From a virus, in the IMG/VR virus record IMGVR_UViG_3300034061_002414, positions 1 to 32,188 of that record: a stretch of DNA of 32,188 nt; one strand, 5' to 3'. The position numbers and the translations under genes were made by a program. Below, piece after piece: positions 16,301-28,924 of this stretch. How positions within the stretch are numbered: the first letter of the stretch is position 1; every line of letters begins with the position of its first letter. The notes beneath the pieces were generated by a model. That model did no database searches. It saw nothing but the letters and a program-made list of their open reading frames with translations, and had not been told where the DNA came from.

Positions 16301-16342
16301 TTGGTTTTAAGTTTGATGGATTCTAAAAAACATGGAGTGTTT

Positions 16343-16528
16343 ATGTTAGTTTTGAGCAGGAAAAAGGATGAGTCAATTCGCATTGGAAGCGACATCGTTA
16401 TCACGATTATTGAAATACGCGGGGACAAGGTACGTCTTGGCTTTGCAGCACCCAAGGACGTTTCGATTCATCGTCAGGAAGTTTACGAGAAAATCATTCA
16501 GTTTGCAGAGGAGAAAATCGCATCGTGA
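16343..16528 (+). CDS. csrA: CsrA/RsmA-family RNA-binding regulator (61 aa)
   Basis: ATG 16343 follows GGAG. The protein [18 protein letters not shown] plus [19 protein letters not shown] and [13 protein letters not shown] is typical CsrA, with the LVLSRK start, the RLG strand, the Arg44-region (IHRQEVY) and C-terminal helix intact. CsrA dimers bind GGA in mRNA leaders and control translation or stability. A phage copy could redirect host metabolism or time its own genes; many leaders in this window carry GGA. Its stop overlaps the GTG start of the acetyltransferase. Confidence 0.9.
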
Positions 16529-19051: not shown

Positions 19052-19126
19052 GGAGCGTGATTGGATCTCGGCACATAGAGGGCTGCAAGCTCCGTTGCCG
19101 ATTGGGTTCGATTCCCAACCGCTCGC
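19052..19126 (+). tRNA. Degenerate tRNA-like element
   Basis: The T arm is perfect (TTGGG-TTCGATT-CCCAA, 19102-19118) and is directly followed by CCGCTCG. GAGCG near 19053 pairs with CGCTC over five positions, giving a tRNA-size (75 nt) frame. A loop CTGCAAG (19083-19089) would show GCA (Cys), but its stem is only three pairs and the D arm is misplaced. Probably a remnant. It ends six bases before the first attC-like site. Confidence 0.3.
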
Positions 19127-19130
19127 TTGG

Positions 19131-19219
19131 TACGAACACCCAGGATAACCCAGTGCGAGGAGGAAAGTAACAATGGCAGAAGGCACTAACGAGCACTTGG
19201 GTTTATCCGATTGTTCGTC
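19131..19219 (+). repeat. attC-like site 1
   Basis: Inverse core AAC at 19135-19137, core GTT at 19213-19215. Arms AACACCCAGGATAACCCAG and CACTTGGGTTTATCCGATTG are complementary except for two extra bases on the 3' arm. The loop carries GAGGAGG and the ATG (19173) of the next gene. Confidence 0.7.
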
Positions 19220-19439
19220 GGCTTTTACCTACGATGAGGTCATGGCATTGATTCGTCGAAAGCAAAAGTTTTTCGAGGACAGGTGGAAGCGAGCCAACAG
19301 CGAAACAGAAGACATGTTTATGGGAATGCACGCTGCATGTGGGTTTTTCATTGCAGAGTTTGCGGCGTTAGCCTCTGAGAAACAGAAGAAGCGGCTTACG
19401 GAAAAAGGAATTTTGAGGGAGCAACCGCCGCAGTCGTGA
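19173..19439 (+). CDS. Cassette protein starting inside attC-like site 1 (88 aa)
   Basis: ATG 19173 lies in the loop of the attC-like site behind GAGGAGGAAAGTAACA; the first 13 codons are encoded by the site and the frame continues through the GTT core. The rest is helical (AYDEVMALIRRKQKFFEDRW-type, with SETEDMFMGMHAACGFFIAE). No family recognised. The cassette's own GTTCGTCGG start has no matching inverse core downstream, so its end may be altered. Confidence 0.55.
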   Translation: MAEGTNEHLGLSDCSSAFTYDEVMALIRRKQKFFEDRWKRANSETEDMFMGMHAACGFFIAEFAALASEKQKKRLTEKGILREQPPQS

Positions 19440-19465
19440 TGCGGCACAACGGTTGGAGGTGTTGG

Positions 19466-19513
19466 ATGAAACGCTGGTATCCGTTACGACAGGCTCTGCC
19501 AGCGATTTTTTAG
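19466..19513 (+). promoter_or_regulatory. Fifteen-codon leader ORF overlapping a terminator-like hairpin
   Basis: ATG 19466 has GGAGGTG just upstream and codes MKRWYPLRQALPAIF. Its codons contain CGCTGG (19472-19477) and CCAGCG (19499-19504), which form a stem followed by A and six T residues (19506-19511). Translating the short ORF would disrupt the stem, so this could be an attenuator ahead of the gene at 19581; the stem loop is long (21 nt), so a plain weak terminator is possible. Confidence 0.4.
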
Positions 19514-19580
19514 TACGGCTAACGTCAGCGATAACCCTGCGACGGGTGTCAAATCGTAAACGAAGAAATGGACAAACAAT

Positions 19581-19895
19581 ATGAACGCAATACAAGAAGC
19601 AATCGAGACAGTTAAGCAATGGCAATCTAGAGATCCACAAATCCAATTCCTGGACGGTCACAGCATGAGTGGAGCCGAAGCATGGCGTGCATGCCTGCGT
19701 AAGGTTCGCGACATGCTGGAGAGCGTTTGCAGAAATCATTGCATCGCAGAACTAGCAAAGGCAATGGACGACATGGCAGACACTATGGACGACCTGCACG
19801 ACGAACTAGACGACTACGACAAAGGATCTGGCAAAAGTCGACAACTGTATTTGTTGCTGCGGACAATGCACGAGACGTTGAGCAAGTCCGCATAA
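19581..19895 (+). CDS. Helical acidic cassette protein (104 aa)
   Basis: Helix-rich: AIQEAIETVKQWQSRD, EAWRACLRKVRDMLES, then a strongly acidic AMDDMADTMDDLHDELDDYD segment that could be coiled coil or a DNA mimic. A weak ribosome site only. The stop codon TAA overlaps the inverse core of attC-like site 2. No family recognised; an anti-host (DNA-mimic) role is conceivable but unproven. Confidence 0.6.
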   Translation: MNAIQEAIETVKQWQSRDPQIQFLDGHSMSGAEAWRACLRKVRDMLESVCRNHCIAELAKAMDDMADTMDDLHDELDDYDKGSGKSRQLYLLLRTMHETLSKSA

Positions 19896-19982
19896 CGCTA
19901 CCGATAATCGAGCCCGAAAGGAAAAACTATGACTAAACTAGAAAACTCCGATGAGGGCTTCGATTCATCGGATTGTTCGTCG
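19890..19982 (+). repeat. attC-like site 2
   Basis: AAC 19894-19896, GTT 19975-19977. Arms AACGCTACCGATAATCGAG and CTTCGATTCATCGGATTGTT pair with the same two unpaired bases. Loop contains AAAGGAAAAACTATG, supplying the start of the next gene. Confidence 0.75.
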
Positions 19983-20261
19983 TCCTCTCCGCTGGAAGTG
20001 TTGATCGACACAGGCGGCGAGGATGTTCACCATCCATATTCAGCGTTTAACCAGGGGTTCGACGCGCAGGCAAAAGGATACCCGAAAAGCTGCAACCCGT
20101 ATGCACCCAGTGCGAAGTCGGAACGGTTTGGGGAATCATGGTGGTGGGATCTCGGATGGGATGAAGCAAAAGACCAAGACGGATTGATCGATTACGGCAG
20201 CAACGCCGGTATTCGTTGCGACACAGACGATGGGCCATGCGCTTGTGGTGCGTGGCATTAG
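19929..20261 (+). CDS. Ribosome modulation factor-like cassette protein (110 aa)
   Basis: Starts at the ATG inside attC-like site 2 and reads through its core. The central part aligns by eye with ribosome modulation factor: AFNQGFDAQAKGYPKSCNPY, then ESWWWDLGWDEA, the counterpart of the RMF A-x-x-x-G-Y..CPY..WLGGW-x-EA signature. RMF dimerises 70S ribosomes into inactive 100S particles. A cassette-borne RMF homologue could shut down or protect ribosomes during infection. The protein is longer than RMF (about 55 residues) at both ends; the C-terminus has CACGAWH. Confidence 0.6.
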   Translation: MTKLENSDEGFDSSDCSSSSPLEVLIDTGGEDVHHPYSAFNQGFDAQAKGYPKSCNPYAPSAKSERFGESWWWDLGWDEAKDQDGLIDYGSNAGIRCDTDDGPCACGAWH

Positions 20262-20265
20262 GTAC

Positions 20266-20350
20266 GGCGAACGCTCGGATTCACCGAGAGGAAAAAGGTA
20301 AACACGATGAGCGAGACGAATGAGGCTTCGGTGGAATCCGTTGTTCACAC
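20266..20350 (+). repeat. attC-like site 3
   Basis: AAC 20270-20272, GTT 20343-20345. Arms AACGCTCGGATTCACCGAG and CTTCGGTGGAATCCGTTGTT; two extra bases on the 3' arm as in the others. Loop carries GAGGAAAAAGG and ATG 20307. Confidence 0.75.
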
Positions 20351-20630
20351 GCCTGGACCGTGGAAACGCTACGAAGGGTACGGAGTTGATTTTCGTCGGC
20401 CCGTTATAACAGATGCTATACCGGATCGCGACGGACAGTGCTTTGCGAACTGCATTTGCTACGTCGCAACGACAAATGGAGATTGGGACGCGAACGCAAA
20501 ACTAATTGCGGCCGCACCTGATTTGCTTGAGGCGTTGATCTATATGCGGCGAACGATGTACAGCGACACATCAGAGGAAAGCATCAAAGCAGACGCAGCC
20601 ATTGCCAAAGCGTTAGGCAAGGTCGTGTGA
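20307..20630 (+). CDS. Phage protein of the HTPGPW...LLEAL family (107 aa)
   Basis: Starts in attC-like site 3. HTPGPWKRYEGY and DANAKLIAAAPDLLEALIYM mark a widely distributed phage-associated protein family with no assigned function. The stop TGA overlaps the inverse core of site 4 (GTGTGAAC), exactly complementary to its cassette start GTTCACAC. Confidence 0.65.
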   Translation: MSETNEASVESVVHTPGPWKRYEGYGVDFRRPVITDAIPDRDGQCFANCICYVATTNGDWDANAKLIAAAPDLLEALIYMRRTMYSDTSEESIKADAAIAKALGKVV

Positions 20631-20716
20631 ACGCTTTGATTCAGGAAGCCGCAACCGCTACTGCTTCCACTGCGAATCGATTCGATAGCGGCTTTCCTGC
20701 AATCAATTGTTAGGGC
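20625..20716 (+). repeat. attC-like site 4
   Basis: Inverse core GTGTGAAC, core GTTAGGGC. Arms AACGCTTTGATTCAGGAAG and CTTTCCTGCAATCAATTGTT, then GCCGC/GCGGC stem. Loop without start codon. Best match to canonical attC length (about 90 bp). Confidence 0.8.
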
Positions 20717-20722
20717 TTTGCG

Positions 20723-21007
20723 ATGAAGTTGACGTTGACCGAAGATGAAAAAAGACAAGTACAGGATTGTGTTCGCCGCGTCCTCACAGGTGAGAAGAAA
20801 TGGGATGCACCAGAATTGCATTTTCCATCAATGGCGATCATTCGGGCAGTTGCCGAAATAGACGGAATTGTTGACACAGAAGACTTTCGCACTAACGGTT
20901 GGCAGTGGGACTGGTGGCAAGATTTTGAGTTTAAAGGAACGCGATTCACGTTGAGCGGATCAGGTGCGTATGGTGGTCATGCGTTTTTCGTCGCAGATGA
21001 GCAATAG
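20723..21007 (+). CDS. Unknown cassette protein (94 aa)
   Basis: ATG is 14 bases after the core GTT and lacks a clear Shine-Dalgarno. Helical start (TLTEDEKRQVQDCVRRVLTG), then WDAPELHF, a WQWDWWQDF aromatic patch and a Gly-rich end (SGSGAYGGHAFFV). No family recognised. The cassette ends in GCCCTAAC, complement of its core. Confidence 0.6.
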   Translation: MKLTLTEDEKRQVQDCVRRVLTGEKKWDAPELHFPSMAIIRAVAEIDGIVDTEDFRTNGWQWDWWQDFEFKGTRFTLSGSGAYGGHAFFVADEQ

Positions 21008-21010
21008 CCC

Positions 21011-21038
21011 TAACAAATAATCTATTGAGTTCCATATA
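21011..21038 (+). repeat. 28-bp exact repeat, copy 1
   Basis: Begins TAACAAATAATCTATTGAG and ends TTCCATATA. Identical to 23408-23435. Both copies start at the inverse core of a cassette, right after the bases complementary to that cassette's own start. In this copy AAC recurs at its end and leads into attC-like site 5. Confidence 0.85.
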
Positions 21039-21125
21039 ACGCTTTGATTCATCGAGTCCCCGCTCGGTGATTAACCATCAATAAACGCGTCGACGGGGAC
21101 TTCGATGCAATCAATTGTTATCGGG
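21034..21125 (+). repeat. attC-like site 5
   Basis: AAC 21038-21040, GTT 21117-21119. Arms AACGCTTTGATTCATCGAG and CTTCGATGCAATCAATTGTT, then TCCCCG/CGGGGA. Core GTTATCGGG is matched by CCCGATAAC at the end of its cassette. Confidence 0.8.
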
Positions 21126-21132
21126 CTTTAGT

Positions 21133-21351
21133 ATGTTTCAGAATATGGTCAGAGTCCCAAAGAAGTTTGAACAGATGTTGATAGACAGCGCAGAGCAGGA
21201 ACTAGGGACGCCGTGCTCAAATGTGGAAATAGCAGAAGCCCTACACGTTGCGAGTCTGTGGGCACCAGACAATCAGGTGGTAAAGGTGATTCGAAGATTG
21301 GCATTTGAGCGAGACAAATTACGGGAGCATTCCGAGAAAACGACAGAATAA
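21133..21351 (+). CDS. Unknown cassette protein (72 aa)
   Basis: ATG 21133 is 16 bases after the core GTT; ATG 21145 is an alternative start. MVRVPKKFEQMLIDSAEQEL then a helix with VAEALHVASLW-type pattern (actual: EIAEALHVASLWAPD) and a basic, charged C-terminus. I do not recognise it. The TAA stop lies inside a short inverted repeat. Confidence 0.5.
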   Translation: MFQNMVRVPKKFEQMLIDSAEQELGTPCSNVEIAEALHVASLWAPDNQVVKVIRRLAFERDKLREHSEKTTE

Positions 21352-21360
21352 AATATTCTG
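21344..21360 (+). terminator. Short inverted repeat at gene end
   Basis: CAGAATA-AAA-TATTCTG followed by GATTATTTTGATTT. A weak terminator or operator separating the 72-residue gene from the promoter at 21380. Confidence 0.35.
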
Positions 21361-21379
21361 GATTATTTTGATTTAGGTA

Positions 21380-21407
21380 TTGCCGCAATCAAGACCGATG
21401 ATATACT
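21380..21407 (+). promoter_or_regulatory. Promoter TTGCCG-16-TATACT inside a cassette
   Basis: -35 TTGCCG (21380-21385), -10 TATACT (21402-21407). Expected start near 21414, giving a 50-base leader to ATG 21466. A cassette-internal promoter for two overlapping small genes. Confidence 0.55.
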
Positions 21408-21465
21408 TTAGGCATGGCAAGCGAATGACGCGGGCCAAAACGAAACCTAAACCGGAGACAAGAAA

Positions 21466-21645
21466 ATGACGTTCACAAAAGGCCAAATCGTTAAAGGCAA
21501 AGTTGCTGGCAAGTTTGTTGTAGTAAAGTGCGAGTTCAGCAAAGTTCACAACAGCGAAGTGGTAACGGTAAATCAAATCAGTCCAGAAGGATTGGTTTCG
21601 CGAAGCAAGATGAAGTTTCCAGTAGATGTTCTGGTGGCAGAATGA
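21466..21645 (+). CDS. Small beta-rich cassette protein (59 aa)
   Basis: GGAGACAAGAAA precedes the ATG. MTFTKGQIVKGKVAGKFVVV then KCEFSKVHNSEVVTVNQI and KMKFPVDVLVAE read like a small SH3-like beta-barrel. ATGA overlap with the next gene. No named family. Confidence 0.65.
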   Translation: MTFTKGQIVKGKVAGKFVVVKCEFSKVHNSEVVTVNQISPEGLVSRSKMKFPVDVLVAE

Positions 21646-21830
21646 ACCACGGTGGAAAACGAGACAACGCGGGGCGAAAGCCCCGCGAAGATGGCAAAGG
21701 GCGAACCGTCCCGAAGTCAATCAAGGTTAGCCAAGAGGTAGCAGATTACCTTGCGGAAAACGGAACGGGTCTGATTGAAGATGCGATCCGCAAAACCAAG
21801 GCGTTCAAGGATTGGTCTAAGTCCCGATAA
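21642..21830 (+). CDS. Small GGKR-x-AGRKP-type DNA-binding protein (62 aa)
   Basis: ATG 21642 overlaps the previous TGA. Begins MNHGGKRDNAGRKPREDG, the basic GG-R-x-GAGR-P motif seen in small phage DNA-binding proteins and terminase small-subunit relatives; then KSIKVSQEVADYLAENGTGL resembles a ribbon-helix-helix. Likely a regulator of its own cassette. Its TAA overlaps the inverse core of site 6. Confidence 0.6.
   Translation: MNHGGKRDNAGRKPREDGKGRTVPKSIKVSQEVADYLAENGTGLIEDAIRKTKAFKDWSKSR
21668..21687 (+). promoter_or_regulatory. Perfect 8-bp hairpin with GAAA tetraloop in coding sequence
   Basis: CGCGGGGC-GAAA-GCCCCGCG, within codons for NAGRKPRE, 26 bases after the start of the 62-residue gene. 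A GNRA-capped stem of this strength would stall ribosomes or serve as an RNase or protein binding site. Confidence 0.6.
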
Positions 21831-21917
21831 CGCTTGGGATCATCGAGCCCCAAAGGAAAAACTATGAACAATCAAACGGACGTTGCAGGGGCTTCGATGC
21901 ATCCCATTGTTACCCAT
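21823..21917 (+). repeat. attC-like site 6
   Basis: Inverse core CCCGATAAC, core GTTACCCAT. Arms AACGCTTGGGATCATCGAG and CTTCGATGCATCCCATTGTT. Loop contains AAAGGAAAAACTATG (ATG 21864), identical to the site 2 signal. Confidence 0.8.
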
Positions 21918-22415
21918 CTTTTCCCCGAAATGGCATTAGACGTGGAGGAGGAAAGCGATGTTGTGTTTACACCGATTGACGTTGCCAAGGATGTCGTCCA
22001 ATGGTTCCAGCCATACGGAAAGGTTCTCGATCCATGCAAGGGCAATGGAGCATTTCTGCAGTTCATGCCTGGTGCGGATTGGTGCGAGATTCGAGAAGGT
22101 CGCGATTTTTTCGCGTGGACGGAACAAGTCGATTGGATTGTGAGCAATCCACCATACTCGATTTTCAGCAAGTTCATGCGGCACTCGATGACGGTCGCAA
22201 GGAACATCGTGTACGTCATTCCAGTCAACAAGGTTTACAACTCGGATCGAACGATGCGAGAGATATGGGATTGGGGAGGCGTGCCAGAGATTCACGTAAT
22301 CGGGCCGGGAGCGGCATTGAAGTTTCCAATCGGTTTTTGCATCGGTGCGGTGCATTTCCAAAGAGGCTACAGAGGATCCACACAAGTGACATTTCGCGAA
22401 AGAGAGAAGCCATGA
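21864..22415 (+). CDS. Adenine-specific DNA methyltransferase-like cassette protein (183 aa)
   Basis: Begins in attC-like site 6; the first 15 codons belong to the site. Motif I-like DVVQWFQPYGKVLDPCKGNG and motif IV VDWIVSNPPYSIF mark an N6-adenine methyltransferase of the short phage type. Target recognition domain is minimal. Such enzymes mark phage DNA against restriction. ATGA overlap at its end with a 58-residue gene. Confidence 0.8.
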   Translation: MNNQTDVAGASMHPIVTHLFPEMALDVEEESDVVFTPIDVAKDVVQWFQPYGKVLDPCKGNGAFLQFMPGADWCEIREGRDFFAWTEQVDWIVSNPPYSIFSKFMRHSMTVARNIVYVIPVNKVYNSDRTMREIWDWGGVPEIHVIGPGAALKFPIGFCIGAVHFQRGYRGSTQVTFREREKP

Positions 22416-22588
22416 ACGAGGATTTAACGAAAGCAACGCATTCGATGATGTTTGCGGTGGGAAGTCTGCAGGACGCCCTGAAGCGTGCCAACCCAGTCGA
22501 GGCACTATTGCTGTTGGATCTGATCGAAACGGCGGCAAAAGTCCAGCAACGTATCGAATCGCTGGCGGCGGCGATCGAGTCCAAGTAA
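22412..22588 (+). CDS. Small helical protein (58 aa)
   Basis: ATGA overlap with the methyltransferase. A single long helix-rich chain: MMFAVGSLQDALKRANPVEA then LLLLDLIETAAKVQQRIESL. Possible coiled coil or small partner of the methyltransferase. No family recognised. Confidence 0.6.
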   Translation: MNEDLTKATHSMMFAVGSLQDALKRANPVEALLLLDLIETAAKVQQRIESLAAAIESK

Positions 22589-22590
22589 GT

Positions 22591-22685
22591 ATGGGTAACG
22601 ACTAAATTCATCGAGTGGCCGCGATGAACTAACCATTAAAGAAAACGCATGTCGGCCACTTCGATGCAATTTTTTGTTCGTCGTC
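22591..22685 (+). repeat. attC-like site 7
   Basis: Inverse core ATGGGTAAC, core GTTCGTCG. Arms AACGACTAAATTCATCGAG and CTTCGATGCAATTTTTTGTT, stem TGGCC/GGCCA. Loop contains CTAACCATTAAAGAAAACG as in sites 5, 8 and 9. Confidence 0.75.
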
Positions 22686-22699
22686 CTTTGGAGATAAAC

Positions 22700-22987
22700 G
22701 TGAGCGCAGAAGATTGCATTTTATACCGCAAGATCGGTAATGATTGGTGCGTCCTCGGATACGGTTTTACATTCGCGGAAGCGGAGTTAGGAGATTACGA
22801 ATTTCGAAAAGCGTCAACAGTTGTCAAGTTCGAGGAATTGTTTACGCATCTCGAAAGGCTCAATGCTAAATACGTCACAGAGTTTGGCATTTGCTACGCT
22901 GGCGAGTTCATTTCGGATGTTCCGCCAGAAGTGCCGCAAGAGCATCGCGTCTTGTGTTGCATCCCTGATAGTGAACGTGACGATTAG
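22700..22987 (+). CDS. Unknown cassette protein (95 aa)
   Basis: GTG 22700 has GGAG six bases before it and is preferred over the in-frame ATG 22649 inside the attC-like site. Predicted alternating strands and helices: AEDCILYRKIGNDWCVLGYG, EELFTHLERLNAKYVTEFGI. Three cysteines. No family recognised. Cassette ends CGACGAAC. Confidence 0.6.
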   Translation: MSAEDCILYRKIGNDWCVLGYGFTFAEAELGDYEFRKASTVVKFEELFTHLERLNAKYVTEFGICYAGEFISDVPPEVPQEHRVLCCIPDSERDD

Positions 22988-22989
22988 GT

Positions 22990-23087
22990 ACGACGAACGA
23001 CACACATCACCGAGTCCCCGCCGGTGATGCAACCATTTCCAAAACATGCGTTGTCGGGGACTTCGGTGCATGTGATTGTTATTTGTC
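22990..23087 (+). repeat. attC-like site 8
   Basis: Inverse core CGACGAAC, core GTTATTTGTC. Arms AACGACACACATCACCGAG and CTTCGGTGCATGTGATTGTT, stem TCCCCG/CGGGGA. Loop of the CAACCAT-AAAACATGCG type. Confidence 0.75.
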
Positions 23088-23150
23088 TTTTTTGGAGTAA
23101 TTATGGCATCACAAGCTATTAGTATTAAGTGCGACAGTTCGCCTTTTGTC

Positions 23151-23369
23151 TTATTTACCAAACTTCTTGATGGTCGCCTCAAGGTCGGCGAGAGAACGCT
23201 CGACTTTAGCGATCTCTGTTTTGAATTGTTTCGCATCGAGAGTGATTTCAGTTCCGCAGGCACAGGCGAACTTGTTGTGCGTCTTTATCCATCCGATGGT
23301 TTTCTTCGTTTTGCGACGACAGTTCTCGCAGGGGATTTCGATCTCGCTTTTGTCGAGTAGGTTTTTCAC
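23151..23369 (-). CDS. Small zinc-ribbon protein on the minus strand (72 aa)
   Basis: The only minus-strand gene. Start GTG at 23369 (coding strand) has AAAGGA nine bases upstream; an ATG at 23432 lies in a repeat and lacks such a site. The product holds EIPCENCRRKTKKTIGWIKT and FACACGTEITLDAKQFKTEI, a four-cysteine zinc ribbon followed by a helix (EIAKVERSLADLEATIKKFG). I recognise this as a recurring small protein type in bacteria and mobile DNA, without known function. The cassette is closed by GTTATTTGTC and its complement, so the gene is in the reverse orientation to its attC. Confidence 0.75.
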   Translation of the reverse strand: MKNLLDKSEIEIPCENCRRKTKKTIGWIKTHNKFACACGTEITLDAKQFKTEIAKVERSLADLEATIKKFGK

Positions 23370-23407
23370 GTCTTGCAATCCTTTGTGTTTGTGAGCATTG
23401 AGACAAA

Positions 23408-23435
23408 TAACAAATAATCTATTGAGTTCCATATA
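23408..23435 (+). repeat. 28-bp exact repeat, copy 2
   Basis: Identical to 21011-21038. Here it is followed by TCACGGTGTTATG instead of a new attC-like site. Both copies begin with the TAAC of an inverse core. Confidence 0.85.
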
Positions 23436-23440
23436 TCACG

Positions 23441-23466
23441 GTGTTATGTGGAATTTACCATAACAC
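23441..23466 (+). promoter_or_regulatory. Inverted repeat upstream of the replication module
   Basis: GTGTTATG (23441-23448) and CATAACAC (23459-23466) separated by ten bases, 60 bp upstream of the initiator gene. Likely operator. Nothing else is recognised in 23436-23525. Confidence 0.5.
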
Positions 23467-23525
23467 GCCAAAACAACCGGATATGTTGAATCAACAACCA
23501 CTAGAGGGGCTGTTAAGGTAGCACG

Positions 23526-24278
23526 ATGCCACGAATTAGGACGATCAAGCCGGAGTTTTGGACGAACGAGCAATTGGCATTATTGTCTTTGCACGCGCGT
23601 TTGTTAGCGATTGCGTTGCTGAATTTTTCAGACGACGAAGGATACTTTTTGGGGAATGCTTCGTTGGTTCGAGCTTCGTGTTTTCCATTCGAGGATTGTT
23701 CCAAGAACGTTCTTGGAAGCCTCCAAGAGCTTTCCCGCGTAGGTTATATCGAGGTGCGGGAGTGTTCGGGAAAGACGGTTGGGAAGGTGGTAAAGTTCCG
23801 CGAGCACCAGCGCATCGATAAACCGCAAACGTCCAAGCTGATGCCACTGTTCCATTCTGTCGCACCTGCAAAAACACAGGAAAACGACAGCGAAAAATCA
23901 GATTCCAAGAACATTCCAGGAACGTTCCAAGAATCTTCCGGGAAGACTATACGCCTGGAACAGGGAAAGGAACAGGGAAAGGGAACAGGGAATAGAGAGA
24001 GAGAAGACGCGAACCAAGAATTTGAAACTGCGTGGACTCGGTGGAAACTCCACTCTCTGGACAAAGGGAAATCGATCAACGGGATCTCTGAGGAAACGCA
24101 ACTGATGCAACTGGCTCAGGCTTATCCGGAGGTGGCAGATCGGATTGCGGCAATCGAGTATGCGATTCTGAAGAACTGGGCAAACGTGAATTTGGGTGGG
24201 GATCATAATCGGCCTCCACCGGAGACGAGATCGAACGGACGCAGGCAGAAAACGACTTTTGAGGAGGTGGGGCTATGA
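23526..24278 (+). CDS. Phage replication initiator/replisome organiser (250 aa)
   Basis: MPRIRTIKPEFWTNEQLALL, then ARLLAIALLNFSDDEGYFLG and VKFREHQRIDKPQTSKL are the hallmark N-terminal winged-helix features of phage replication organisers. The middle is a Ser/Lys/Gln-rich linker containing tandem DNA repeats; the C-terminal part is helical (EFETAWTRWKLHSLDKGKSI). As with lambda O, the linker is a likely origin. ATGA overlap with the following gene. Confidence 0.8.
   Translation: MPRIRTIKPEFWTNEQLALLSLHARLLAIALLNFSDDEGYFLGNASLVRASCFPFEDCSKNVLGSLQELSRVGYIEVRECSGKTVGKVVKFREHQRIDKPQTSKLMPLFHSVAPAKTQENDSEKSDSKNIPGTFQESSGKTIRLEQGKEQGKGTGNREREDANQEFETAWTRWKLHSLDKGKSINGISEETQLMQLAQAYPEVADRIAAIEYAILKNWANVNLGGDHNRPPPETRSNGRRQKTTFEEVGL
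23701..23716 (+). repeat. 16-bp perfect palindrome in the initiator gene
   Basis: CCAAGAACGTTCTTGG, self-complementary. It shares the TTCC/GGAA core type of the iterons 200 bp downstream and may be an extra initiator binding site. Confidence 0.6.
23903..23993 (+). repeat. Iterons, candidate origin of replication inside the initiator gene
   Basis: Four 11-bp units, TTCCAAGAACA, TTCCAGGAACG, TTCCAAGAATC and TTCCGGGAAGA (23903-23946), each built around TTCC-NN-GAA, one helical turn apart. They are followed by three copies of GGAACAGGGAAA (23957, 23969, 23982) and an A/G-only tract. Arrangement and location in the linker of the initiator gene parallel the lambda origin. Confidence 0.6.
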
Positions 24279-24739
24279 CGATCGAAGAAGCGAATAGCTT
24301 TTTACGGGAAGCGTTTATTGCGTTCCCTGGGGTGCTGCAGTGGGTGAAGGATAACTCACCAGATCCGAAGCAAACGTTGCAGCTTTGGGCAAAGAACCTA
24401 GAACGGATTTCAACAGCAGAAGCGATCAGCGTTCTGAACAGGTGGAACGCAAACGAGATCCCGCCACCGTCAGGCTATCAACGTGAATTATTTATCAACC
24501 ATGTGATCGCGGTGGTTCAGAAAGATCGATCGAAGAATTATGCAGCTCGGCACCGTGAAGAGGTTTTCGAACAGCTTAACCTGAAGCAGCCGAAGGGGAA
24601 CTACAACGCAGTTTGTGGTCCGTTTATGAAAGATGTGCTAGGACTCAAAGCAAGTTATGATTTAGGACAGATCAGCTTTGAAGAACTTACGAAGCAGGTC
24701 GAGGAACGGAAACAACAAGCGATGGACTCGGTGAAATGA
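24275..24739 (+). CDS. Replication partner / helicase-loader-like protein (154 aa)
   Basis: ATGA-coupled to the initiator. Helical: TIEEANSFLREAFIAFPGVL, LQLWAKNLERISTAEAISVL, then RELFINHVIAVVQKDRSKNY. Proteins of this size and helical content after a phage initiator usually recruit the host helicase; no AAA motif is visible, so it is not an ATPase. Function inferred from position. Confidence 0.5.
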   Translation: MTIEEANSFLREAFIAFPGVLQWVKDNSPDPKQTLQLWAKNLERISTAEAISVLNRWNANEIPPPSGYQRELFINHVIAVVQKDRSKNYAARHREEVFEQLNLKQPKGNYNAVCGPFMKDVLGLKASYDLGQISFEELTKQVEERKQQAMDSVK

Positions 24740-25098
24740 AACGCAGCAAGAAAGGATTCTATGGAACGGCTTCAATCCTTAACGATCACGATTCCCGGGA
24801 AGCTTCCGACATGGAACGCACTGTTGGCTATGAATCGCTGGCGACGAGCGGAAGTACGGCATTCGATTCACTTGTTAGTATTCGAATCCATTCGTACCGA
24901 ATCCGTCTGGCGGACGTTGACGGGATCAGTGGAAAGGCAGTCCTTGACGGATTGGTGCTTGCCAAAATTATCGCAGACGACACCACGAAGGAAGTCAAGG
25001 AAGTCTTGTTCAGTCAAACCAAGGTCAAGAATAAGACGGAAGAAAAAGTAGTCGTGACAGTCGAGAGGGTGGAGCAAAAATTGAATCCTGGTTGTTAA
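24736..25098 (+). CDS. RusA-like resolvase split by a -1 frameshift
   Basis: ATG 24736 overlaps the previous TGA, but the RusA-like N-terminus is in the frame that starts at ATG 24761 (AAAGGA upstream): LTITIPGKLPTWNALLAMNR. The C-terminal half continues in the frame ending at 25098: RIRLADVDGISGKAVLDGLV, IADDTTKEVKEV with the DxxD-type and DD residues of RusA/Holliday junction resolvases. The switch must occur between about 24870 and 24920, where no slippery heptamer is present. Either a recent one-base loss or a sequence error; otherwise the gene is a pseudogene. Confidence 0.6.
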   Translation: MKRSKKGFYGTASILNDHDSREASDMERTVGYESLATSGSTAFDSLVSIRIHSYRIRLADVDGISGKAVLDGLVLAKIIADDTTKEVKEVLFSQTKVKNKTEEKVVVTVERVEQKLNPGC

Positions 25099-25103
25099 TT
25101 ACG

Positions 25104-25203
25104 GGGGACGCGGCAAGTGCCGGGTGACACCGGAAAAGTGAGCAAGGCCAGCAGTCAACTGGCTGTCAAAAGACTATGCAGTGTGCGAATCCTGCCGTCC
25201 CCA
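25104..25203 (+). tRNA. Type II tRNA-like element with irregular loops
   Basis: GGGGACG (25104-25110) pairs perfectly with CGTCCCC (25196-25202). Anticodon-like arm GCCAG-CAGTCAA-CTGGC (25147-25163) has a seven-base loop but A where T33 should be. A variable-arm hairpin GTC-AAAA-GAC follows, then a T arm GCAG(T)G-TGCGAAT-CCTGC with one extra base. The D region is 36 bases, too long. Probably a decayed or specialised tRNA. It ends eight bases before attC-like site 9. The 332-bp interval 25099-25430 holds this element, attC-like site 9 and a promoter. Confidence 0.35.
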
Positions 25204-25210
25204 TTAAGTC

Positions 25211-25303
25211 AGGCGAACGACTGTCATCATCGAGTCCGCACCAGTTGATTTACCATCAGGAAACGGCTCAAGGCGGACTTCGATGCATGACTTTGTTCCC
25301 CGT
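25211..25303 (+). repeat. attC-like site 9
   Basis: AAC 25216-25218, GTT 25295-25297. Arms AACGACTGTCATCATCGAG and CTTCGATGCATGACTTTGTT, stem TCCGC/GCGGA; loop of the TTTACCATCAGGAAACG type. Confidence 0.75.
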
Positions 25304-25340
25304 TCCGACGCTCCAAAAGATTTTCCAGAATAATTCCCAG

Positions 25341-25387
25341 AAAGTGTGTGTAGAGTTCTTGCCCCAGTCGATAAGTGTGTGTATAGT
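25341..25387 (+). promoter_or_regulatory. Cassette promoter TTGCCC-17-TATAGT with duplicated 15-mer
   Basis: -35 TTGCCC (25359-25364), -10 TATAGT (25382-25387). AAGTGTGTGTAGAGT (25341-25355) and AAGTGTGTGTATAGT (25373-25387) differ in one base and are 32 bp apart, about three helical turns, one covering the -10 and one upstream of the -35. Likely operators or twin -10 regions. Confidence 0.6.
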
Positions 25388-25430
25388 AATCGCATCACGG
25401 CAACGATAACCACAAACAAGGAAACGAAAA

Positions 25431-25622
25431 ATGGCCTGGAATATCCAATACGAAAACGACAGCTACCCAACGATCAAAGTTTTCGGAAGCCGAGAAAAGG
25501 CAGAAGAGACAGCAAAGAAGCGAAATAAGTACAACGAAAGCTACACGATCACCGAAGCCCCAAAACAAAACTACGAAATCGAAATGGAGCAAGCGATTGA
25601 AGAAGTCAAAAAGTACGGCTAA
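25431..25622 (+). CDS. Small cassette protein (63 aa)
   Basis: AAGGAAACGAAAA upstream of ATG 25431. MAWNIQYENDSYPTIKVFGS then EKAEETAKKRNKYNESYTIT and a helical acidic end. The strand-helix pattern is that of small beta-alpha phage proteins. No named family. The next gene starts within it. Confidence 0.6.
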   Translation: MAWNIQYENDSYPTIKVFGSREKAEETAKKRNKYNESYTITEAPKQNYEIEMEQAIEEVKKYG

Positions 25623-26025
25623 GGCTGGCGGCGAAAAGCCGGGGGGCAACCCCCGGCGAAAACGCCGGTCGTTCAAGGAAAAACAAAACTGGATTCTCGA
25701 AAGATTGGACCGTGAATGGGAGCGGATTTTGAGAACAACCGTTTCAGGTCACTATCCGCCAGACATTTCGTCTCAGAACGAGGAGGACGAAGAGGCATGG
25801 CATCAAGAATTTGGAGGCTATCGAAAGTGGTATTTAATGGGACACCATGTTTCTCCAGATTTCGCAAGAACGCTTCGCAGGATGTGGGAGAACGGGATTT
25901 TGTATAGATCGACCGGAGGAAATCAAGGAGCAAGAGAAGGCGGATACGCGATGAAAACGTACTACGTTTCGTATCGATCCAAAAGACACCACCACGAAGC
26001 AAAAGTATTGAGAGGCGAAGCGTGA
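25597..26025 (+). CDS. Unknown basic protein with TTG start (142 aa)
   Basis: TTG 25597 has GGAG eight bases upstream and lies in the end of the previous gene; no ATG or GTG precedes the body. N-terminus is basic (AKAGGEKPGGNPRRKRRSF), encoded by a strong hairpin. The body RTLRRMWENGILYRSTGGNQ and YYVSYRSKRHHHEAKVL suggests a winged-helix or nucleic-acid binding protein. No family assigned. GTGA overlap at its end. Confidence 0.55.
   Translation: MKKSKSTAKAGGEKPGGNPRRKRRSFKEKQNWILERLDREWERILRTTVSGHYPPDISSQNEEDEEAWHQEFGGYRKWYLMGHHVSPDFARTLRRMWENGILYRSTGGNQGAREGGYAMKTYYVSYRSKRHHHEAKVLRGEA
25629..25667 (+). promoter_or_regulatory. Perfect 8-bp GNRA-capped hairpin with outer stem in coding sequence
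   Basis: GCCGGGGG-GCAA-CCCCCGGC (25638-25657), enclosed by CGGCG (25629-25633) and CGCCG (25663-25667). It lies just after the stop of the 63-residue gene, inside the next reading frame. Very stable; expected to affect ribosome flow between the two genes. Confidence 0.6.
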
Positions 26026-26213
26026 CAAACGAGCGCAAAAACATTACGCAACCTTCCGATTGGTGGGTTGCATTTGAGGAAGCAGCGAAAGCCGAAGGCT
26101 TGACGCTTGCAGCTTGGCTAGGCGAAGCCGCCAAAGCGAAGCTGCCGCCGAAGGTGGCGAAGAAGCTGACGGAAAGACCGCCAGCAAACCGCCCACCGAA
26201 GGCGAAAGACTAG
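26022..26213 (+). CDS. Small antitoxin-like/RHH-type protein (63 aa)
   Basis: GTGA overlap with the previous gene. SDWWVAFEEAAKAEGLTLAA then WLGEAAKAKLPPKVAKKLTE and a Pro/Lys-rich end. The W-x-x-F-E-x-A-A-x-x-x-G-L-S-L pattern is common in small phage DNA-binding proteins with a ribbon-helix-helix-like core. Probably a regulator. No family confirmed. Confidence 0.55.
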   Translation: MTNERKNITQPSDWWVAFEEAAKAEGLTLAAWLGEAAKAKLPPKVAKKLTERPPANRPPKAKD

Positions 26214-26216
26214 ATA

Positions 26217-26311
26217 CGGGGAACGCTACGGTTCATCGAGCCGCCAAGGAAAAACTATGCAAAACCAAACCAACGTGACAGGCGGCTTCGATGCAACCGT
26301 TTGTTCCACGG
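26217..26311 (+). repeat. attC-like site 10
   Basis: Inverse core CGGGGAAC, core GTTCCACGG. Arms AACGCTACGGTTCATCGAG and CTTCGATGCAACCGTTTGTT. Loop holds AAGGAAAAACTATG (ATG 26257), the same start signal as sites 2 and 6. Confidence 0.8.
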
Positions 26312-26514
26312 CCATCAAGCATTCAAAGGTTGATGTTCGTGTTATCGGCGATCATCCACACAGCGGGAAATCCGGTTGGATTCCTCTCCGCAATGGAGAG
26401 CCAGAGACGATCAATATGTTCGGTCGTCTCATGGCCAAGATTGAGTTTCCAGACGGTACTGGATGCTACGCAGAGATGCGTCATTTTTCTATTTACAAGG
26501 ACCAAAGAAAGTGA
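26257..26514 (+). CDS. Unknown cassette protein starting in attC-like site 10 (85 aa)
   Basis: The first 15 codons are encoded by the attC-like site (MQNQTNVTGGFDATV). The body is beta-rich, with DVRVIGDHPHSGKSGWIPLR and AKIEFPDGTGCYAEMRHF, resembling a small SH3-like or OB barrel. No family assigned. The next gene starts at a GTGA overlap. Confidence 0.6.
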   Translation: MQNQTNVTGGFDATVCSTAIKHSKVDVRVIGDHPHSGKSGWIPLRNGEPETINMFGRLMAKIEFPDGTGCYAEMRHFSIYKDQRK

Positions 26515-26867
26515 AAGACGAAGAATACATCGCGAGAGCGATTGAAGGATGCGTAGTTGGCAACGGGTCAAAACAGATTTCGTTGCTAGTCGAAGAGTTG
26601 GGGCGAATTGTCGCCGAAGTCAAATACGTTCGCAGTCAATCGTTTTGCCCAGACATGGGCGAGTTTTCGCGTGGATACCAAACGGCGTGCGATGAGATCC
26701 TGGAACGGTGCAAACCGTACAGGAGAATCCAAGCGGGCAGGATGACGATTGAGCATCTGGCAAAGCGGCTCGCGGACGTCGAGCGTTGGGTTGAGCAACG
26801 TAGCGGCATTAGTGAAAACGCGAGTTTACACAACGAAGCGTGCGACAGCGAAAAACGGTCGCATTAG
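26511..26867 (+). CDS. Unknown helical protein (118 aa)
   Basis: GTG 26511 overlaps the stop of the previous gene; GGAC lies upstream. Helical: EYIARAIEGCVVGNGSKQIS, LVEELGRIVAEVKYVRSQSF and IEHLAKRLADVERWVEQRSG. No recognised family. Near match of CCGTGTGAAC after the gene suggests a degraded cassette end. Confidence 0.55.
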   Translation: MKDEEYIARAIEGCVVGNGSKQISLLVEELGRIVAEVKYVRSQSFCPDMGEFSRGYQTACDEILERCKPYRRIQAGRMTIEHLAKRLADVERWVEQRSGISENASLHNEACDSEKRSH

Positions 26868-26931
26868 GTCCGTGTGAACAATTTATTAACCTGCACCGCG
26901 CAGTTTTAACACGCAAAATCAAGGAGGTAGC

Positions 26932-27150
26932 ATGAACAACTGGATATCGATAGCTGACAAACTACCACCCATCAACGAACCCGTTCTATTTTGTTGCCTC
27001 GAAGAGTGGGGCCAATTCGGTGACGTGGATTTAGGTTGGTTCGAAGGACACGAAACGCAAGGTGAAGCCATCGCAATGGAGACATCATCTGACGGGTGGT
27101 ATCCGTGCACGCATTGGATGGAACTGCCTTTAGTTCCGGAAGTGCCATGA
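26932..27150 (+). CDS. DUF551-family protein (72 aa)
   Basis: AAGGAGGTAGC precedes the ATG. NWISIADKLPPINEPVLFCC and HWMELPLVPEVP match the DUF551 pattern (WISV-D-LP...VL...HW-LP-P) common in phage early regions. Role unknown. ATGA overlap with the next gene. Confidence 0.75.
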   Translation: MNNWISIADKLPPINEPVLFCCLEEWGQFGDVDLGWFEGHETQGEAIAMETSSDGWYPCTHWMELPLVPEVP

Positions 27151-28006: not shown

Positions 28007-28924
28007 GTGGATTACACAATCCCACCCGATACGATTTACAACAACGACCTGTTCGCGATGGCTCCCAGGCTTTGGCACTGGACTTCTGAGCTAGCCGAGA
28101 AGGTCGGAAAGATTGCAACTGGAAAGTCAATTAAGGTTGCTATCGGTGATACTGGCTACACGAAACACGTTGACGGTCCTGAACCAGTCGCTGCGAAGTC
28201 GTTCATCTCGGGTCAGTCTGCACTTCGTGACGGAAACGGACATGGCACCCATTGCGCAGGAACAGCACTAGGACGCAATGGAATCGGTGTTGCTCCGCAA
28301 GCTGAGCTGATTGTCTTCAAGTGCTTGTCAGATCAAGGTAGTGGGTCATCGACTGGTATCGCAAACGGTATTCGCTGGGCTGCGGAGCAAGGTGCGGACG
28401 TTATCAGTCTATCTCTCGGTGGTGGTGGTTCTGATAACGAAACGAACCAGGCTATCGACTACGCTTTCTCGCTTGGGTGCATCGTGAACGCGGCGGCCGG
28501 CAATGCAGGCTACAACGGTTCGAATACGATTGGCTGGCCTGCACGATACAACGGTTGTCTATGCTGCGGTGCGTATCAAGCAAGTGGGCAGATTGCGAAC
28601 TTTTCTTCGGGTGGCAAGGAACTTGACTGGGCTTGTCCTGGGCAGGACATCATCTCGTTCAGCAAGAACGGTAGCGGCTACACTTCGATGAGTGGCACAT
28701 CGATGGCAACTCCGTTTGGTAGCGGTTTGTTAGCTTGCATCGTGGAAGTGATGCGTCGGCAAGGGAAGTCACAATGGAAGGCTACGGATGCGGTAAGAGC
28801 GTTCTTCAAAGCGAATCTCAAAGACGCTGGAGCACCTGGATTTGATCCACGGTTTGGTCATGGCATTCCTGTCGCTGACTCTCTTCTGCAATCTCTTCTT
28901 CGTTCGGAACTGGTGCTAGCATGA
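28007..28924 (+). CDS. Subtilisin-like serine protease, S8 family (305 aa)
   Basis: GTG start directly after the preceding stop. Catalytic triad visible: Asp48 in AIGDTG, His82 in GHGTHCAG, Ser232 in SGTSMATPF, with oxyanion Asn165 in AAAGNAG. No signal peptide is evident, so it is cytoplasmic or virion-borne. The family cleaves peptides broadly; phage subtilases may process virion proteins or host surface proteins. Followed without gap by a secreted protein. Confidence 0.9.
   Translation: MDYTIPPDTIYNNDLFAMAPRLWHWTSELAEKVGKIATGKSIKVAIGDTGYTKHVDGPEPVAAKSFISGQSALRDGNGHGTHCAGTALGRNGIGVAPQAELIVFKCLSDQGSGSSTGIANGIRWAAEQGADVISLSLGGGGSDNETNQAIDYAFSLGCIVNAAAGNAGYNGSNTIGWPARYNGCLCCGAYQASGQIANFSSGGKELDWACPGQDIISFSKNGSGYTSMSGTSMATPFGSGLLACIVEVMRRQGKSQWKATDAVRAFFKANLKDAGAPGFDPRFGHGIPVADSLLQSLLRSELVLA

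Follow-up and report, generated by a model that had tools for sequence, protein, structure and literature searches.

Two integron-type arrays of reversed gene cassettes in a metagenomic sequence of a tailed phage

The DNA analyzed here, referred to below as the window, is one linear IMG/VR record of 32,188 bases and is probably partial. It begins at a head protease/capsid gene, and neither a terminase nor a portal was found among the window proteins scanned. When ten window ORFs were tried against Pfam, only the methylase encoded from attC 6 (Table 1) passed the cut-off. By eye, an ORF at 16301–16528 is similar to the translational regulator CsrA, and the next ORF, at 16525, is GNAT-like. A subtilisin-like protease gene lies at 28007–28924 (phrog_3677, E 6e-53).

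The initial annotation of this DNA described ten attC sites of a fixed plan, and both a fixed-plan scan and covariance models recover exactly these ten (Table 1). In the scan, which replaced a free-gap hairpin search drowned in chance matches, the sites score 14–18 of 18 and all lie between 19135 and 26305; the next best stretch scores 11, and neither Markov shuffles nor the mirrored plan exceed 12. An absence of hits by an attC model had been named as evidence that would speak against such sites. A covariance model (R2) trained on 28 sites, all taken from bacterial genome contigs, and used instead of HattCI or the IntegronFinder model, matched precisely the ten window sites, all on the + strand, with E values of 1e-21 to 4e-10. 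Under 0.01 the window gave one further match, to site 22996 read on the opposite strand, and Rfam gave no match in the window.

Table 1. Positions of attC sites, attI-like elements and related features in the window
Feature	Position	Strand	End complementarity of cassette	Remarks
attC 1	19135..19215	+		Loop RBS and ATG (19173) open ORF 19173–19439
attC 2	19894..19977	+	5 of 6	Loop ATG opens ORF 19929–20261
attC 3	20270..20345	+	6/6	Loop ATG opens ORF 20307–20630 (phrog_1273 family)
attC 4	20630..20711	+	6/6 (cassette ends at 21012)	ORF 20723–21007 begins shortly downstream
Truncated copy of attI-like element 1	21012..21037	+		Fused to attC 5; cassette 4 ends here
attC 5	21038..21119	+	6/6	Found by scan and covariance model
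attC 6	21829..21911	+	6/6	Loop ATG opens ORF 21864–22415 (N6 DNA methylase-like)
attC 7	22597..22678	+	6/6	Cassette common to phage L048 at 95%
attC 8	22996..23080	+	6/6 (cassette ends at 23409)	Final site of array 1
attI-like element 1	23409..23467	+		Ends array 1; before replication-initiation gene at 23526
attC 9	25216..25297	+	6/6	Opens array 2
attC 10	26222..26305	+	2 of 6 (cassette ends at 26877)	Loop ATG (26257) opens ORF 26257–26514
attI-like element 2	26877..26914	+		Ends array 2; AACAATTTATTAACCTGCACCGCGCAG
Array-2 module	25071..27146			Missing as one block in syntenic relative L378

All ten sites show the inverse core boxes AAC...GTT, flanked by complementary bases within cassettes, and fold into a stem whose central spacer is unpaired and whose extrahelical bases lie on a single arm. 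The two unpaired bases previously described on the 3' arm are real, and the AAC-to-GTT distance of 73–82 given with them was slightly short, since the sites measure 76–85 nt from AAC to GTT inclusive. When 34 phage sites were aligned, 95.8% of the pair cells were paired, and below the core box both members of the pair vary in 15 of 18 stem pairs. The energy-based strand preference of the cruciform is small. The sites depart from the R' consensus GTTRRRY and read GTT[A/C]NNC, with GTT kept; because phages and Pirellulaceae hosts do so alike, this is a property of this host type.

One exact form of the site pattern was found in 58 stretches of other viral contigs and in 93 stretches of genome contigs, nearly all of the latter belonging to Pirellulaceae or to unplaced Planctomycetota. 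The ten sites represent the attC type found in chromosomal integrons of Pirellulaceae. The search for IntI in host contigs, which had been proposed as a check, was positive above the TIGR02249 cut-off in 21 of 27 host genomes. Given the presence of both the site pattern and IntI in these genomes, the phage most likely infects Pirellulaceae, a planctomycete family.

The ten sites were at first taken for a single array; the window instead holds two arrays, each with an attI-like end. These ends had been overlooked, as had the reversed polarity of the cassettes, the start codons in five of the ten sites and the IntI encoded by related phages. Element 1 resembles the attI that precedes a host IntI (L252: AACATATAGTATGCGGAATTTACCATATTCCG). 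Among the fetched loci, forms related to it sit at an array end in all ten sequences found, and collection-wide scans with two forms of the element returned array-bearing contigs only. A form close to element 2 lies some 90 bp ahead of intI in phages L274–L276, and no intI follows element 2 in the window. Judged by their likeness to these sequences, the elements at 23409 and 26877 would be attI sites at the array ends.

Complementarity between cassette ends had been claimed for seven cassettes over 8–10 bases. The seven cassettes hold (Table 1), and the rule is one of six bases: positions +1 to +6 after GTT complement the six bases before the next AAC. The same 6/6 complementarity was found in 45 of 76 phage cassettes versus 3 of 155 comparisons across single sites. 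It also flags the end of array 1 at 23409 and, within that array, position 21012; the last cassette of the window breaks the rule. The first segment of array 1 (19216–19893) carries two ORFs and, near 19520 (AACGTCAGCGATAACCC), what seems to be one half of a degenerated attC, a possible reason for its missing end complementarity. A tRNA-like sequence precedes each array, at 19052–19126 (ending GGGTTCGATTCCCAACCGCTCGC) and at about 25103–25206; ARAGORN at normal thresholds and Rfam found no tRNA before the arrays, and the first is called as tRNA-Cys only at a 75% threshold. A TAGGT flank at −11 to −7 was observed before 22 of 138 phage sites versus none of 354 host sites, and this flank, upstream of AAC, often provides the stop codon of the preceding cassette.

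Relatives chosen by capsid protein seldom covered the array locus, whereas searches with arrays and attI did. A comparison of cassette content across relatives had been suggested, with the same ten elements in the same order everywhere as the outcome that would speak against an integron; three syntenic relatives (L030, L048 and L378) were found to hold different arrays at the same locus. The flanks of L030 are 94% and 98% identical to those of the window and reach as far as the AAC of attC 1 on one side and attI-like element 1 on the other. The array between them is 2.0 kb long versus 4.3 kb in the window, with one common ORF at 79%. L048 has six sites and a single cassette in common with the window. 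In L378 the locus holds two sites, and the array-2 module is missing as a whole, with 25070 directly joined to 27147. Other cassettes recur across phages with different neighbours. This array turnover, as read from the sequences, is consistent with recombination by an integron integrase.

The polarity of attC sites was set by the extrahelical bases and by intI, and gene direction by codon scoring. With a plain longest-ORF test, shadow ORFs prevented a decision for many cassettes, and codon scores settled most of them. With the extrahelical bases on the 3' arm, the attC polarity is opposite to that of the genes. Such reversal was found in 68 of 69 decided phage cassettes (9/9 window segments and 59/60 decided cassettes of other viral records), none of these 68 having the gene in the attC-set direction, read away from attI, of a canonical cassette; among host cassettes it was seen in 7 of 148 (Fisher p=6e-47). 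Beside phage intI all decided cassettes are likewise reversed, and attC sites have the same orientation with respect to intI in phages as in hosts. In a review, the choice of the bottom strand of attC is regarded as essential for the right orientation of cassettes and their expression from Pc.

Start codons lie within the loops of five of the ten window sites and are lacking in the other five. An RBS motif with a loop ATG was found in the gene direction in 58 of 125 distinct phage sites and in the other direction in one; in hosts the corresponding numbers are 12 and 8 of 346. The loop ATG opens an ORF of 60 or more codons in all 64 distinct phage cases, and the other two frames do so in 0 and 3. 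These 64 ORFs have a median of 106 codons and stop at a median of 9 nt before the next AAC. As they read through the 3' arm of the attC, one attC-encoded leader heads unrelated proteins: leaders ending in ASVQSVV were found on eight, in LGSSDCS on six and in ASMHPIV on four.

Neither intI nor a match to a tyrosine recombinase was found in the 32-kb window, in agreement with the initial annotation, which had seen no IntI. With ten attC sites and intI absent from its 32 kb, the window has the composition of a CALIN. Complete integrons, with intI beside attI, occur in seven related viral records and not in the window, and in these seven the array lies directly upstream of IntI. Four of the seven were examined and carry terminase, portal or head genes, and the other three have a portal match. 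The terminase model PF03354 had no match in 16 records, and a portal model had a match in seven. Four phage IntI that were aligned retain the catalytic residues and the IntI-specific insert. In a tree containing the six distinct IntI of related phages, five of them form, together with the viral IntI L281, a clade (100/99) outside the host IntI, and the IntI of L284 branches away from it. The phage IntI clade appears to be new.

Phage-type cassettes were also found inside host arrays. A Pirellula MAG contig with a host IntI (L166/L252) has three of them among canonical cassettes, and one of the encoded proteins resembles, by eye, that of 20307–20630 in the window, with an HTPGPW start and an LIAAAPD motif. 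Another contig (L197) combines a canonical cassette with one of phage type, and the protein of the latter shares 97% identity with that of phage L279. Host and phage cassette bodies have no nucleotide match at 1e-6. Given the MAG origin of these contigs, the evidence for phage-type cassettes inside host arrays is strong but not final.

The presence of attC arrays in phages, initially thought unusual, is not without precedent: 17 phage CALINs were reported by Qi et al. 2023 (PMC9892861). Their phages (TJE1, P12002L, PH101, Vibrio p16, Shewanella M16-3) are similar to the present one in having attC arrays, often without intI, and methyltransferase cargo, and their attC sites were recombined by IntI1 in the laboratory. 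However, the complete Vibrio integron described there is a piece of the host's own integron and the cassettes are described as typical, whereas here the sites are of Pirellulaceae type, the genes are reversed, the starts lie in attC, the ends are attI-like and relatives have an IntI clade of their own. The sedentary chromosomal integrons of Pirellulaceae have the same attC type, the same attC-to-intI polarity and a similar attI, but the host genes are canonical, host attC loops seldom hold a start, and the phage cassettes are shorter (median inter-site gap 309 versus 586 nt). The integrons of Treponema (PMC3607928) are also atypical, in that intI shares the direction of the cassette genes; in those integrons it is intI that is inverted, reading toward attI, while the cassette genes run away from attI as usual. 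Here, by contrast, intI is normally placed and oriented, and it is the genes that are reversed with respect to attC. Class 1 integrons of P1 and other phage-plasmids are integrons on phages as well, but they represent a recent gain of resistance integrons by temperate phage-plasmids and have canonical cassettes. In the literature searched, with preprints and most subscription journals outside its scope, we found no description of reversed phage cassettes with starts inside attC, and these reversed, start-codon-bearing cassettes appear to be new.

We consider it probable (about 0.8) that the window belongs to a tailed phage with two integron-type arrays of reversed cassettes that are moved by the IntI of the host or of a related phage. 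The mobile unit would run from AAC to the next AAC and consist of an attC hairpin followed by an ORF that ends near the next AAC, with half of the hairpins in the window bringing an RBS and an ATG in the loop. An IntI from the host or from a phage of the related clade would act on the folded + strand, recombining it on the side of the AAC, and units would be inserted at the attI-like ends. As the genes point toward attI, an outward attI promoter cannot express them and they would be read by phage transcription through the array, each cassette bringing its own translation start, in many cases from attC. The sites, their polarity, the loop starts, the attI-like ends, the IntI of relatives, the turnover of cassettes and the phage-type cassettes of host arrays are read from sequence, and we infer the recombining strand, the enzyme used by a phage lacking IntI, the mode of expression and any benefit of the cargo. 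The points that we counted against this reading are the absence of intI, the probably partial record, the GTT[A/C]NNC boxes, the failure of the six-base rule at 26222–26877, the lack of a loop start in half of the window sites, the small strand preference of the cruciform and the metagenomic nature of all sequences.

A different origin would be an ordinary CALIN, that is, a piece of a host integron with canonical cassettes acquired by a phage as in Qi et al. 2023. The host-type attC sites, the host-like attI-like element 1 and the lack of intI in the window would all fit such an acquisition, but we regard it as unlikely, since the polarity test already weakens it, the genes being reversed with respect to host cassettes, and since starts lie within attC, related phages own an IntI clade and cassettes are common to several phages. 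Somewhat less probable still is that the hairpins are repeated 5' translation leaders, serving as expression elements, in which recombination was lost or never present. Their conservation as structures and the RBS and ATG in their loops could be so explained. The start codon is missing in half of the sites, however, and IntI adjoins such arrays; the six-base complementarity links the ends of one cassette and not the sides of one site, and where relatives differ in array content, their common flanks break off at AAC and at the attI-like element.

It could also be argued that general homologous recombination between similar attC sites reshuffles the arrays without an integron integrase, given that the sites are alike, that intI is absent from the window, that some cassettes break the six-base rule and that the array-2 module, when compared with L378, is present or absent as a single block without AAC boundaries. 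Crossovers inside attC would mix the flanks, yet 45 of 76 cassettes keep 6/6, and both IntI and attI are present in relatives and hosts; we therefore give this a very low probability as a sole explanation, although the two processes may act together. The lowest probability is assigned to an assembly or binning artefact joining phage and host integron reads. The viral records are all metagenomic and labelled linear, and some of the host contigs are short MAG contigs, but the window and many other records have arrays on the same contig as phage head and replication genes, and the same locus recurs in contigs of separate data sets (L030, L048, L378).

Beyond the preferred reading of two integron-type arrays moved by IntI, a broader proposal, which we make tentatively and with rather less than even confidence, is that phage-native integrons form a class of their own in several lineages, with reversed cassettes and attC as a portable in-frame translation start, and that they feed host integrons. 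If so, phages build new cassettes and supply them to the integrons of hosts, where they lie antisense to host cassettes. In integron theory the choice of the attC strand orients genes for the attI-side promoter (PMC8946536), and a large natural pool here does the reverse; the phage cassettes appear to solve the problem of expression differently, by placing a translation start in the recombination site. One attC-encoded leader joined in frame to eight unrelated proteins offers a setting for the question of how cassettes originate, and phage-type cassettes within host arrays one for the question whether phages move cassettes between bacteria.

Seven viral records with IntI outside the Pirellulaceae phage clade (L346, L348, L353, L339, L317, L308 and L347) also look reversed, with 0 canonical among 10 decided cassettes, few being scorable, and with a portal match in three, and four (L305, L350, L343 and L340) look canonical. 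In L304 and L336 the attC-to-IntI polarity is opposite to that in all the remaining viral records with IntI that the model recovered, and their layout is perhaps similar to that of Treponema.
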